IMG/VR virus record: IMGVR_UViG_3300024348_000023
Coordinates: 1 to 64,000 of that record
Source of the DNA: a virus
Strand: one strand, 5' to 3'
DNA: 64,000 nucleotides
The translations under genes were made by a program, and so were the position numbers. Within the stretch, counting starts at the first letter, position 1. The number at the start of each line of letters is the position of its first letter. Below are positions 7,580 through 32,917 of the stretch, piece by piece. The notes under the pieces were generated by a model, which ran no database searches, was not told the origin of the DNA, and was given only the letters and a program-made list of their open reading frames with translations.

Positions 7580-7885
7580 ATGTCTGTAAAAAGATTAGTT
7601 CCCCTTAATGCCGTTGAATTACTAACAGATCCAGCACCAGGCCGTGTTGGCGATATATATTATAATACTACAGCCTCAGAACTTAGAGTTTGGTCAGGCA
7701 CAGCATGGGTAGCAGTTGGTTCTGCTGGCGAACAATATACACTAGAAAACCATATTCATACATACGATGGCGACATTCATACCGTCTATGCAGGAAACTA
7801 TAATCCAGCTCTTACAATATTTGACGGTGGAACTTCTGCAGCTCAATACGATGAGACAAGAGATATTGACGCAGGTACATTATGA
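7580..7885 (+). CDS. Small fibre-module protein, 101 aa
   Basis: Essentially one copy of the shared fibre module: [20 protein letters not shown], then [12 protein letters not shown], followed by a short Asp/Tyr/His-rich tail with [11 protein letters not shown]. No collagen repeats. It lies between two fibre genes, preceded by AAGGAG and ending in an ATGA overlap with the collagen-like gene downstream, so it is likely co-assembled with it. A stand-alone adaptor or cap for a neighbouring fibre is a reasonable guess. Confidence 0.65.
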
Positions 7886-9297
7886 CAATAAATACATCTG
7901 TAAAACATAAAAGAGGAACTTCTCTACAATGGTCTACCGCCAGCTATATATTAAAAGATGGCGAAATTGGAATAGATACAACTCTTTACAAGATTAAAGT
8001 TGGTGACGGAGTAAAAACTTGGTCGCAGCTTCCATTTGTTGCAGCTGATGTGACAGGCGCTACAGGAGCTACAGGTTCAGCAGGTGCTACAGGCGCTACA
8101 GGCGCCACAGGTGTAATTGGATCTACTGGTGCCACAGGCCCTACAGGTGCTACAGGTGCTACAGGCGCTACAGGCGCACAGAGTACTATACCTGGACCCA
8201 CAGGTGCAGCAAGCACTATCCCTGGACCCACAGGCCCAACAGGCCCAACAGGACCTACAGGATTAACAGGTGATATAGGGCCCATAGGATCAACAGGATC
8301 TACTGGTGTTACAGGCACTACAGGTTCAACAGGTGCTACAGGCCCTACAGGCTCAACAGGTGCTACAGGCGCTACAGGTTCAACAGGAGCTACAGGACCA
8401 GCAGGCGCTACAGGTTCAACAGGCGCTATAGGTGATACAGGCGCTATAGGGTCTACAGGACCAGCAGGGCCAACAGGTGCTACAGGCGCTACAGGCGCTA
8501 CAGGCGGAGACTCCACAGTTGTTGGTCCAACAGGACCAACAGGCGCTACAGGCGCTACAGGTGAAACAGGTGCAACTGGTTCTACTGGCCCAGAAGTTGT
8601 TGCTCCATTTACTTTAACTCAAACATCAAATAATGCAAATTATCCTCTTACAATATCTTCTGCAAATCAGCAAGGTGGCGGAGCAGGATATTCTGATATA
8701 TTAAAAATTATTAACTCTAAATCTGGTGCAACAAACTCAAATAAATTTTTGCGTATGACAGACTCTGGATCACTTGAAATTATTAATAGTGCCTATACTG
8801 CTTATCTTATGAATTTAGACAACAGTGGTAACGTAAGCTTCCCTGGCTACGTAAGAGGTGCAGCTCCAGGATCTGTATTAAAAGATACAATGCTTAGCAA
8901 TAGTGAAGTTACTGTTGTTTCTACAACAATTGCAGCATCAACAACTTCCACAAGCTTTATTACTTATAGCTACACTCCAGTAAGCGCATCTAGCTATTTG
9001 ATTGTAAACATTCATATTTCCAAATATAGCCAAGGTGGTACAGTAAATGATGATTACTATTCACAACTTCTTGTTGATGGAAGCGAAATAGCTTACGGAT
9101 ACTCAAACTATAATACTGTTTCAGGCGGAAGTGGAAGAACGGGAGTTCTTTTCCCACTTACTGGAAGATACACAAATACAAGCACAAATGCAAAAACAAT
9201 ATCTGTAGCAGCCAGAAGAGGCACAGCGGATGATAGTATTACTATTGATAATAGTGGAACATCAATTTGGCTTAGAATTACTGAGGTGGCTAGATAA
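7882..9297 (+). CDS. Collagen-like tail fibre with Mtd_N-type N-terminus
   Basis: Residues 1-53 ([20 protein letters not shown], then [15 protein letters not shown]...W) match the N-terminal anchoring domain shared by many phage fibres, including the major tropism determinant type. Residues about 58-237 are Gly-X-Y triplets, mostly Gly-Ala-Thr, Gly-Pro-Thr and Gly-Ser-Thr, predicted to form a trimeric collagen-like rod. The C-terminal domain (about 240-471) is beta-rich with [15 protein letters not shown] and TISVAARRG, resembling C1q/TNF-type or fibre-tip folds. Thr at Y positions is chemically suitable for O-glycosylation, as known for Bacillus BclA. It is coupled to the genes on both sides. 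Confidence 0.85.
8050..8592 (+). repeat. 9-base Gly-X-Y collagen-coding repeat tract
   Basis: Degenerate repeats of the type GGT-GCT-ACA and GGC-GCT-ACA encode uninterrupted Gly-X-Thr triplets over about 540 bases, with a few variants ([14 protein letters not shown] and GDIGPIG). The strong three-base periodicity keeps an antisense frame (7986-8516) open without indicating a gene there. Slippage would stay in frame and alter rod length. Confidence 0.85.
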
Positions 9298-10673
9298 TGG
9301 CAGTTAGAATTCAAGTAAGAAGAGATAGCTCAATAAACTGGACATCAAATAATCCAATTTTACAAGTTGGTGAATTTGGTTTTGATACAACAGTAAATAG
9401 ATTTAAGGTTGGCATTGCTTCAAATGACACATCTAGGTGGAACGCACTTCCTTATTTAAATGTTATTCCAAGCGAATTAGCTGAGCTTGCTCAGGATGCA
9501 GTAGAAGCAGCAATTGCGGCAGGAACTGGAATTGCTAAAGTTTATAATGACAACGCTAACACTATTACTCTTTCAGTAGATAGCACAATTGCTAATAAGA
9601 CATATGTAGATACTGCTATTTCAGGATTAGGTAATACGGTGTCAACTGGGTACATCCCCTTATCTCTTAAGGGTAACGTAGACGGAGTTGCAGAGCTTGA
9701 TGAAAATGGCTATGTTCCACAAACACAATTAACAAATACATTAAACGATATAACTTATTATGTTGATGGTGCAGTTGCGGGAATAGTTAATTCCGCTCCA
9801 GCAGCCTTAAATACATTAAAAGAATTATCAGATGCTTTAGGAGCAGATGCAAATTTTGCTACTACAACAGCCACAGCATTAGGAACAAAAATAACTGCAA
9901 CAAGCCAAGACACACTTAAAAATAAAATTATTTCTATATCAAATGGAATTACTTCAGTTTCACAGTATGATACAACAGCAGGATTTTATGGACAAAATAA
10001 TATTCCAGTAATTCAAAATGGCGGCTCAGGTGCAGCAATCAATATATCAGGTACAGGTGTAATTACTGTTGCATCTTCTGGAATTGGATACACTTCTGGT
10101 ATAGCTATTATTGGCGGTGGAACAAGAATACTAATTGAAATTGGTGGCAATACGCTTACTGGAACAAAAGCTCAATTTAATGCTGCAATGACAGATGCAG
10201 ATTTTGCAACCTTAACAGGTACAGAAGAATTGTTAAATAAAACTTTAAACTCTCCAATAATTAATCAGCCATCTGGACTATTGAAGTCAGATGTTGGCCT
10301 CAGCAATGTAGATAATACTTCTGATTCTAATAAGCCAATATCAACTGCAACACAAACTGAGTTAGATACTAAATTAAATAAGCTTGTTCAAACAAATGCA
10401 CAAGCAGGTTCATATCAACTTACAGTAGGAGATGCCTTTAAGTTAATTGAAATGAGCGGCGGCGGATCCTTAACAATACTAGATTCTGGCCTATTTCCAA
10501 TAGGATATACTGTAGATATTTTACAAACTGGATCTTCTCAGGTAACAATTCAGGGTAATGGTTTTACTCCAAATGCTACGCCAGGGCTAAAATTAAGAAC
10601 ACAGTGGAGTTCTGCAACTTTAATTAAAAGAGCATTAAACTCATGGGTTGTTCTTGGCGATTTAACCGCTTAA
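9297..10673 (+). CDS. Tail fibre protein with Mtd_N-type N-terminus, 458 aa
   Basis: The N-terminus (VRRDSSINWTSNNPILQVGE, then FGFDTTVNRFKVG) is a second copy of the anchoring domain found at 7882. Next come DNANTITLSVDSTIANKTYV and GVAELDENGYVPQTQL, a block nearly repeated in the protein at 15795 (GVAELDENGYVPQAQL). GLSNVDNTSDSNKPISTATQ is the common phage fibre block. The C-terminal beta domain (LTVGDAFKLIEMSGGGSLTI) is typical of fibre tips. No collagen repeats. Its start overlaps the previous stop (TAATG), so the two fibres are made together. Confidence 0.8.
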   Translation: MAVRIQVRRDSSINWTSNNPILQVGEFGFDTTVNRFKVGIASNDTSRWNALPYLNVIPSELAELAQDAVEAAIAAGTGIAKVYNDNANTITLSVDSTIANKTYVDTAISGLGNTVSTGYIPLSLKGNVDGVAELDENGYVPQTQLTNTLNDITYYVDGAVAGIVNSAPAALNTLKELSDALGADANFATTTATALGTKITATSQDTLKNKIISISNGITSVSQYDTTAGFYGQNNIPVIQNGGSGAAINISGTGVITVASSGIGYTSGIAIIGGGTRILIEIGGNTLTGTKAQFNAAMTDADFATLTGTEELLNKTLNSPIINQPSGLLKSDVGLSNVDNTSDSNKPISTATQTELDTKLNKLVQTNAQAGSYQLTVGDAFKLIEMSGGGSLTILDSGLFPIGYTVDILQTGSSQVTIQGNGFTPNATPGLKLRTQWSSATLIKRALNSWVVLGDLTA

Positions 10674-31837: not shown

Positions 31838-31855
31838 ATAAAAGTCAGGATGTAA

Positions 31856-32917
31856 ATGAAAATAGCAGTATACACAATTGCTTTAAATGAAGAGCAATTT
31901 GTTGAGCGTTGGTACGAGTCTGCAAAATATGCTGACTGTTTATTAATTGCAGACACAGGCTCTACAGATAAAACAAAAGAAATAGCATCAAAACTTGGTA
32001 TAGAAGTTCATTCTATATCCGTGGCTCCCTGGCGATTTGATGATGCTAGAAATGCAGCACTTGCATTAATTCCTTCAGATATAGATTACTGCATATCTTT
32101 AGATATGGATGAGATATTATCAGAAGGTTGGCGGGAAGAATTAGAAAAACTGCCATCTACAGTAACAAGACCAATACATAGGCTTGTAACATCATTTGAT
32201 GAAAATGGAATTCCAGGCGTTGAGTTTGATGCATTAAGAATTCACTCAAGACATGGACATCGGTGGAAATATCCAATTCATGAATCTGTTGCATTTTATG
32301 GCATAGATGAAGTAAGACAGGATGTGGATATTAAAATATTTCACCATCCAGATAATAATAAATCTAGAGGACAGTACTTGCCTTTGCTGCAAATGGCAGC
32401 ACAAGAAGATCCAACAAGCGATAGATGTGCTCATTATTATGCAAGAGAATTGTACTACTATGCCAGGTATGAAGATGCAGCAGCAGAATTTAAAAGACAT
32501 TTATCGCTGCCTTCCGCATTCTGGAAACCAGAAAGATGTGAGTCAATGCGCTACATTGCAAAGTGTGAGCCTAACGATAGAGAGTATTGGCTTAGACTGG
32601 CTATTGCAGAGTGTCCAGAAAGAAGAGAGCCTTTTGTAGATCTTGCTCAATATTTTTATGAGCTTAAAGAGTGGGATAGAGTAAAAGAGTACTCACAGCT
32701 TGCCTTGAATATAAAAGAAAAATTCTTGGGTTATTTTTGTGAAACAGATGCTTGGGGCTGGAAGCCTCATGATCTAATGGCTTTGGCCAACTACAATTTA
32801 GGGCTAGATGAAGAGGCATTACTTCATGGTAAAATTGCATTAGATCTTAATAATGATGATAGGCTAAAAAAGAATGTAGAATTCTACGAGCTAGCCTTGT
32901 CAAACAATGGAGAGTAA
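31856..32917 (+). CDS. GT2 glycosyltransferase with TPR-like C-terminus
   Basis: 353 residues. GT-A fold start (KIAVYTIALNEEQFVERWYE; LIADTGSTDKTKEIA) and the metal-binding DxD in SLDMDEIL identify a family 2 inverting transferase. Residues about 175-350 are helical repeats (CAHYYARELYYYARYEDAAA; WDRVKEYSQLALNIKE; LGLDEEALLHGKIALDL) resembling TPRs, an arrangement known from protein-modifying GT2 enzymes such as SunS. It lies between the cupredoxin-tipped collagen fibre and a lectin-like fibre and overlaps the latter's start, so a fibre is a natural acceptor. Acceptor and sugar are unknown. Confidence 0.85.
   Translation: MKIAVYTIALNEEQFVERWYESAKYADCLLIADTGSTDKTKEIASKLGIEVHSISVAPWRFDDARNAALALIPSDIDYCISLDMDEILSEGWREELEKLPSTVTRPIHRLVTSFDENGIPGVEFDALRIHSRHGHRWKYPIHESVAFYGIDEVRQDVDIKIFHHPDNNKSRGQYLPLLQMAAQEDPTSDRCAHYYARELYYYARYEDAAAEFKRHLSLPSAFWKPERCESMRYIAKCEPNDREYWLRLAIAECPERREPFVDLAQYFYELKEWDRVKEYSQLALNIKEKFLGYFCETDAWGWKPHDLMALANYNLGLDEEALLHGKIALDLNNDDRLKKNVEFYELALSNNGE

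Follow-up and report, generated by a model that had tools for sequence, protein, structure and literature searches.

A phage gene cassette that likely pairs a polyproline fiber with prolyl 4-hydroxylase-like enzymes

The DNA considered here, referred to as the window, is a stretch of 64 kb out of the 72,168-base virus record IMGVR_UViG_3300024348_000023. Between 10.7 and 15.7 kb, it carries a block of genes encoding a Pro-Pro-Val repeat protein, a prolyl 4-hydroxylase (P4H)-like oxygenase, two further oxygenases that we call OX2 and OX3, and a GT61-like glycosyltransferase. We consider it likely that this block is a cassette for both making and modifying a fiber, by which the phage hydroxylates, and often glycosylates, a polyproline fiber of its own. 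The cassette is common to phages with different backbones, and many uncultured phages seem to carry such a fiber gene next to genes for its modification. The original prediction, made from the letters of the window, was that the oxygenases and glycosyltransferases of this region form a single toolkit acting successively on collagen-like and polyproline fibers. Our comparison of gene neighborhoods agrees that the oxygenases and a GT2 glycosyltransferase travel with repetitive fiber genes far beyond controls, but it splits the toolkit into two modules: P4H genes track proline stalks and GT2 genes track collagen, which argues for two pairs and not one enzyme series on collagens.

Gene neighborhoods were compared among relatives from viral contigs, 34 for P4H and 18 for OX3. 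In the P4H clade closest to the window sequence, a proline-periodic stalk gene lies upstream in 24 of 24 nonredundant loci with at least 1.5 kb of upstream sequence; 20 of these pass a rule requiring at least eight clustered PP, and the remaining four, which carry (PV)n (L087), (TPIIA)n (L111 and L112), or short PPVT runs (L090), were judged by inspection. A collagen gene is found within 4 kb of P4H in 2 of the 24, on which ground we reject collagen as the main P4H target; it is probably not a P4H substrate. The original prediction had named relatives that keep the enzymes and lack the fibers as evidence against it; such relatives exist as far as collagen alone is concerned, and the close clade contains none that lacks a proline stalk. 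A wider P4H set joined the 34 P4H relatives to the best 80 of 560 loci from a search with the P4H alignment, in which identity falls as low as 28%; it was assembled without a proline criterion and scored by a strict rule (40 residues with 7 prolines and at most 5 residue types), the thresholds of which were fixed after the first loci had been viewed and before the distant P4H and PP[FY] sets were scored. By this rule, a stalk is encoded within 4 kb and on the same strand at 35 of 53 nonredundant P4H anchors, and at 19 of 36 when distant P4Hs are taken alone, compared with 1 of 31 GT2 genes, 0 of 15 portal genes, 0 of 7 major capsid protein genes, and 1 of 26 random far open reading frames (ORFs) on the same contigs (Fisher's test of P4H against random ORFs, p = 5e-8); a structural-protein control gave 2/4, with four anchors being too few for use. 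Under a soft rule (12 prolines in 40 residues) the P4H count becomes 41/53, against 3/31 for GT2, 0/15 for portal, 0/7 for major capsid protein, 0/4 for structural protein, and 1/26 for random ORFs.

Reverse searches, which started from repeat patterns in DNA, drew on 120 stretches per pattern (PP[FY] and PP[VTAI]); loci shorter than 4 kb were excluded from these and from the cassette-partner counts. Using a profile of 33 P4H-like proteins from the window record and from GT2-relative and P4H-relative loci, a set that includes PPFF-linked members from L115 and three from GT2 control loci, we found P4H matches in 78 of 99 loci with the PP[FY][FY] pattern, or, without redundancy, in 74 of 92 as compared with 2 of 39 GT2 loci (p = 1e-16). 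The tally omits three loci already numbered lower, including L291 and L326 (both with P4H), and L450–L455, known from annotation alone, stand outside the scans. At least three P4H-like genes are present in 45 of the 92 loci, with a maximum of nine: L355, L364, L373, and L436 have eight or nine diverged copies by a PP[FY][FY] stalk gene, and in L436 nine are consecutive. The oxygenase battery of L355 includes a DUF6065 gene and a phrog_7084 gene; a member of the latter family is encoded in the window at 414–1115 (minus strand; PHROG match).

The candidate substrate in the window is the Pro-Pro-Val stalk protein (10689–11582, plus strand). The presence of this protein, already noted in the original prediction, is borne out by a pattern of four PPxx units that occurs eight times in the window and in none of 100 shuffles. 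The protein is composed of a weak PASTA-like N-terminus that falls below the cut-off, two PPV(V/N/T) arrays (residues 81–106 at 10929–11006 and residues 201–266 at 11289–11486, plus strand), a middle domain, and a Cys-rich C-terminal tip. Together the arrays contain 48 Pro, 37 Val, 6 Asn, and 1 Thr and no Ser, a composition in which a sugar would most easily be placed on hydroxyproline. Beside the close P4H clade, the stalk units are PPVV, PPVT, PPVN, TPPPIIA, TPIIA, and PV, and the N-terminal parts are diverse: some have only a short start of the MSPLF type, others are PASTA-like or Fn3-like, and others again are long structural proteins. These assignments were made by eye except for PASTA (Pfam, under cut-off). 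Many of the tips are short and Cys-rich. One tip type, CSTAxC...CCFY, is found on PPVV in the window, on PPVT/PPVV in L249, and on TPIIA in L111 and L112, so that under a single tip the stalk chemistry varies, with proline and the enzyme both retained. Stalk ends and phage backbones likewise differ among the close loci. Upstream of many distant P4Hs, still other proline repeats are found: PTPT, PAVT, SPAAPV, PPDFTPA, SPPGFFAPPGFF, and PPFF.

All three oxygenases named in the original prediction are present in the window. The P4H-like 2-oxoglutarate (2OG)/Fe(II) enzyme (12318–12884, plus strand; PF13640, 2e-16) matches the Pfam family 2OG-FeII_Oxy_3 at 61 bits, with a cut-off of 27, and the top matches of its profile among solved structures are prolyl hydroxylases. 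Its iron triad (H117, D119, and H170) is invariant in an alignment of 31 sequences, and the position of R180, the likely 2OG ligand, is occupied by R or K throughout the rest of the alignment. The top structural row for its AlphaFold2 model (predicted local distance difference test score of 93) in VIA-align is Chlamydomonas P4H with (Ser-Pro)5 (3gze; Z 20.2, root-mean-square deviation [rmsd] 2.2, 170 residues); several PHD rows and the EF-Tu-bound Pseudomonas P4H (Z 19.5) tie with it. The fold thus points to a protein prolyl hydroxylase, with hydroxylation of peptidyl proline as the predicted activity, and leaves the choice of substrate to gene linkage. DNA modification was considered for this enzyme and set aside given a Tet_JBP match (E 0.005) far below the cut-off and the protein hydroxylases in the top fold rows. 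When bacterial genomes were scanned for the window P4H, no relative was found, and hence no prophage or host. Among named phages, P4H matches at E 1e-5 comprise 266 records (Synechococcus, Cyanophage, Prochlorococcus, Marine, and Methylophilales), with identity to the window P4H of at most 31% among the matches listed (40 of the 266); a query with a distant P4H adds 10 Rhizobium phages. The named phages thus offered no close P4H suited to work in culture. In the same phage collection, OX3 and GT61 have no match at E 1e-5.

OX2 (12872–13429, plus strand) and OX3 (15028–15744, plus strand), a remote relative of OX2, share an HxD...H...R motif. Neither matches a Pfam family even at E 1, and we therefore term them 2OG-like by motif and fold only. 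Residues H94, D96, H140, and R142 of OX2 are invariant in 14 sequences, and its model is a 2OG-type barrel, with 6n1f as the best row (Z 16.6, rmsd 2.4 over 160) followed by SnoN, halogenases, and PHD2. The PHROG matches of OX2 and OX3 are limited to phrog_2954 and phrog_3531, whose label, ferrochelatase, is contradicted by motif and fold and is probably a misannotation.

The usual order of the block is a tail or adaptor gene, the proline stalk, a small variable protein, a DUF6171-like gene, P4H, OX2, and OX3, with the sugar enzymes being variable. The DUF6171-like gene, which in the window encodes a small four-Cys protein (12071–12316, plus strand; PF19668, 1.5e-5, 25.7 bits, slightly below the cut-off of 27), is found between the stalk gene and P4H in all 27 nonredundant loci that have enough upstream sequence. 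OX2 accompanies P4H in 21 of 28 loci and OX3 does so in 16 of 24. The GT61-like assignment of the original prediction holds (13363–14364, plus strand; PF04577, 4e-13, 50 bits with a cut-off of 27); the listed ORF begins at a TTG within OX2, and the true start is probably an ATG near 13402. After GT61 comes, as proposed, a sulfotransferase-like gene on the minus strand (14346–14969), although its PF03567 match (E 0.001, 19.7 bits) does not pass the cut-off of 22; the same arrangement is seen in nine related loci on eight contigs (L091 and L237 belong to a single contig). Other cassette partners, seen in single relatives, include a radical S-adenosylmethionine (SAM) protein with SPASM (L094), a UDP-glucose dehydrogenase (L084), an epimerase (L110 and L271), a JmjC-like protein (L106), and a cupin-like protein below the cut-off (L113). 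PF11397 transferases are encoded near the oxygenases of L106 (2e-35) and L150 (3e-26). We take PF11397 to be the family of the transferase that adds N-acetylglucosamine to Skp1 hydroxyproline; if this is correct, the position of these genes beside P4H is telling. A separate arrangement is seen in cyanophage S-SCSM2R (L254, PQ898602.1), where a run of 2OG oxygenases, several glycosyltransferases, a radical SAM protein, and an amidinotransferase are encoded in a stretch with neither a PP array nor collagen.

We propose that the Pro-Pro-Val protein, encoded among tail-fiber genes, would form a thin stalk that carries a variable Cys-rich tip at its end and probably adopts the shape of a left-handed polyproline II rod. 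While the infection proceeds and virions are still unfinished, the P4H-like enzyme would hydroxylate stalk prolines, which would stiffen the rod and provide many hydroxyl anchors. OX2 and OX3 may hydroxylate this protein further. GT61, joined in relatives by other sugar enzymes, would then glycosylate the hydroxyls so formed, and the sugars may be capped by the weak sulfotransferase-like protein. The predicted end product is a stiff, protease-resistant, sugar-coated stalk, and the collagen fiber would be served by its own GT2.

Several observations weigh against this proposal. Of the 53 P4H anchors in the wider set, 12 lack even the soft proline signal. With the window proteins as queries, GT61 is found in 6/24 loci and the sulfotransferase-like protein in 5/24, so that glycosylation by these enzymes is no constant part of the system. 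The PP[VTAI][VTAI] pattern recovers P4H in 8 of 107 loci of at least 4 kb as compared with 3 of 79 GT2 loci (p 0.36); most such loci lack these enzymes, and polyproline arrays therefore exist without P4H. Conversely, no PP array occurs within about 8 kb on either side of the P4H-like genes in L252–L255, which come from three cyanophages and one marine virus. Another cyanophage, ACG-2014f, has a collagen gene, a glycosyltransferase, and a 2OG oxygenase (PiuC) together before a putative short tail fiber, so that other pairings exist. That the stalk is part of the virion is suggested by gene position only. Our search of the open PubMed Central (PMC) literature found no report of hydroxyproline in any phage. 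PBCV-1 has a P4H, yet attempts to find hydroxyproline in its virions failed (PMC7019647), and according to a 2012 paper, neither bacteria nor viruses possess the prolyl hydroxylases that collagen requires (PMC3368898).

The second pair consists of GT2 and a collagen-like fiber. Three window proteins pass the PF01391 cut-off: one with an Mtd-like N-terminus (7882–9297, plus strand; 2e-20, also PF18454), a short one (18519–19139, plus strand; 1e-6), and a long tail-fiber protein (29468–31837, plus strand; 3e-9, tail-fiber PHROGs). This supports all but one member of the collagen-like set of the original prediction; its second short candidate (5704–6147), outside the range given for the set, has no Pfam match and no run of four collagen triplets. 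The 29468 gene adjoins that of the GT2 (31856–32917, plus strand; PF00535, 3e-7; phrog_13126, 7e-113), an assignment that also stands. Among GT2 relatives from viral contigs (the best 80 of 247 confirmed), 39 of 50 nonredundant loci with a region of at least 5 kb have a collagen gene no more than 4 kb away; a looser PP-array rule on either strand finds 4 of 52 GT2 loci, part of these being of odd composition. As the original prediction had observed, the window collagens carry Pro in X and Thr in Y: the 7882 protein has X=P 13 and Y=T 43 in 54 counted Gly-X-Y triplets, and the 29468 protein has X=P 27, Y=P 2, and Y=T 39 in 66. GT2 and the collagen-like fiber are probably a separate pair, with the threonine-rich Gly-X-Thr repeats as the GT2 target. 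The window GT2 shares 55% identity with its counterpart in lake phage DSL-LC01, in which (L002, OQ999401.1 101148–107690) a tryptophan-halogenase-like gene (PF04820, 5e-50), followed by one hypothetical protein, lies between GT2 and annotated collagen genes.

These data bear on the reading in which the oxygenases, GT61, and GT2 act in sequence on the collagen-like fibers, which we now consider unlikely. Both fiber types and all of the enzymes do lie within one 25-kb stretch, ACG-2014f groups collagen, glycosyltransferase, and PiuC, and GT2 is found with collagen in most loci; however, collagen is rare beside close P4Hs, the window collagens seldom carry Pro in Y, and DSL-LC01, with five annotated collagen genes and a GT2, is absent from the 266 records with P4H matches.

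Small, variable Cys-rich tips and the radical SAM/SPASM, 2OG, and glycosyltransferase genes of some cassettes could also be expected if the stalk protein were instead processed into a secreted, modified peptide rich in Cys, similar to a ribosomally synthesized and post-translationally modified peptide, that is matured by the enzymes and forms no virion fiber. In one lineage, the cassette is directly 5' of holin-like (by eye) and endolysin genes. In the same lineage, however, the stalk gene is 3' of a major-tail-protein gene and of a gene of about 1000 residues at the position expected of a tape measure, with the caveat that this gene and the two genes before the stalk have no informative PHROG match; moreover, the stalk sits inside proteins of 767 residues in L090 and 1318 residues in L150. 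We regard a secreted peptide as improbable.

Equally doubtful is that the enzymes target the host or nucleotides (EF-Tu, surface glycans, or DNA) and merely collect as cargo in the fiber region, for although the P4H model is near-equal to the EF-Tu-bound bacterial P4H and cyanophage relatives adjoin helicase and denV-like genes, GT2, likewise a fiber-region enzyme, has a strict stalk at 1/31 anchors as compared with 35/53 for P4H, proline and P4H persist as stalk chemistry varies, and the PP[FY] reverse search recovers P4H in 74/92 loci.

A hydroxylated polyproline fiber has its nearest parallel in the hydroxyproline-rich glycoproteins of plants and green algae (extensins), which are proline-repeat rods modified by P4Hs such as Cr-P4H. 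One feature of that class, a regular proline-rich backbone with a linked P4H, is found here as gene linkage: proline-repeat rods go together with sugar enzymes and with a P4H that shares the fold of the algal one, 3gze being its top structural row. Unlike extensins, the phage proteins belong to a tail-fiber region and not to a cell wall, and their units are hydrophobic (PPVV, PPFF, and TPIIA); the phage sugar enzymes are GT61 or PF11397, whereas plant-type hydroxyproline arabinosyltransferases are GT95 and GT77, and hydroxyproline in the phage protein is a prediction. Phage virion glycosylation, for example in mycobacteriophages, involves glycosyltransferases proposed to act on the phage's own structural proteins, as we propose for the cassette; to our knowledge, no hydroxylation step is part of it. 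We advance a wider reading, which seems to us quite possible if short of probable, that the cassette is a phage counterpart of extensins: a widespread set of interchangeable proline-rod fibers that would be hydroxylated by one to nine dedicated oxygenases and then variably glycosylated. Neighboring residues such as Phe/Tyr or Val are perhaps hydroxylated as well.

Among viral systems, PBCV-1 encodes a small P4H that acts on proline-containing peptides (PMC7019647), and its structure (5c5t) is among the rows for the P4H model (Z 18.6, rmsd 2.3 over 157). In contrast to PBCV-1, where hydroxyproline was not found in virions (PMC7019647), the phage cassette encodes a candidate substrate next door. 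Mimivirus collagen and the L230 lysyl hydroxylase/glycosyltransferase (PMC9546862) similarly combine a viral repetitive fiber, a 2OG oxygenase, and a glycosyltransferase, and an L230-related structure (9nev) is among the fold-comparison rows; that system, however, concerns lysine and collagen in a eukaryotic virus, as opposed to proline and a noncollagen stalk in a phage. Dictyostelium Skp1 is subject to a pair of a P4H-type enzyme and a transferase (PMC3515798), resembling L106 and L150 with their PF11397 genes; Skp1 is a cytoplasmic regulator, unlike the stalk, and the window has GT61, with no PF11397 seen there.

In Baltic Sea water viruses, P4HA is among the commonest auxiliary genes, occurring at 62% of stations, and the authors of that survey write that the viral use of prolyl 4-hydroxylase "remains cryptic" (PMC9301287). 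For lake viruses, two papers report P4H genes or transcripts (PMC9469726, PMC9611531), and we found no paper in the open PMC literature linking phage P4H genes with proline-rich fibers. Prolyl hydroxylation and glycosylation of structural rods are known; what appears to be new, as judged from gene sequences, is the same linkage in phages. This linkage supplies a candidate substrate, encoded next door, for viral P4H, and it means that co-expression of two genes would suffice to test the question. If our proposal is true, a phage prolyl-hydroxylates its own fiber, and such cassettes offer hydroxylases suited to widely differing proline repeats. The cassette could explain why prolyl hydroxylase genes are common in aquatic viruses; we infer for ourselves that the Baltic P4HA genes are of the cassette kind. 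Should the comparison with extensins be correct, the abundant P4H genes of aquatic viromes would gain their missing substrate.

Elsewhere in the window, genes typical of tailed phages are encoded at 35–61 kb (portal, head protease, structural, tape measure, and tail), and the capsid gene is 72% identical across 328 bases to that of Streptomyces phages such as NootNoot. The ORFs named in the original prediction are open at the positions given for them in a check of the window reading frames. The transferase that it placed at 1957 is confirmed as GT4-like (1957–2958, plus strand; phrog_2170, 2e-64, with Pfam GT1 families slightly below cut-off) and is a possible extra sugar enzyme. Two antisense ORFs over the collagen repeats (7986–8516 and 30334–31158, minus strand) look like reading-frame shadows and not genes. 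Glycine-rich proteins (PF21722) are encoded at 25358–26350 and 26876–27811 with two small ORFs between them, and this arrangement is retained in many GT2 relatives.

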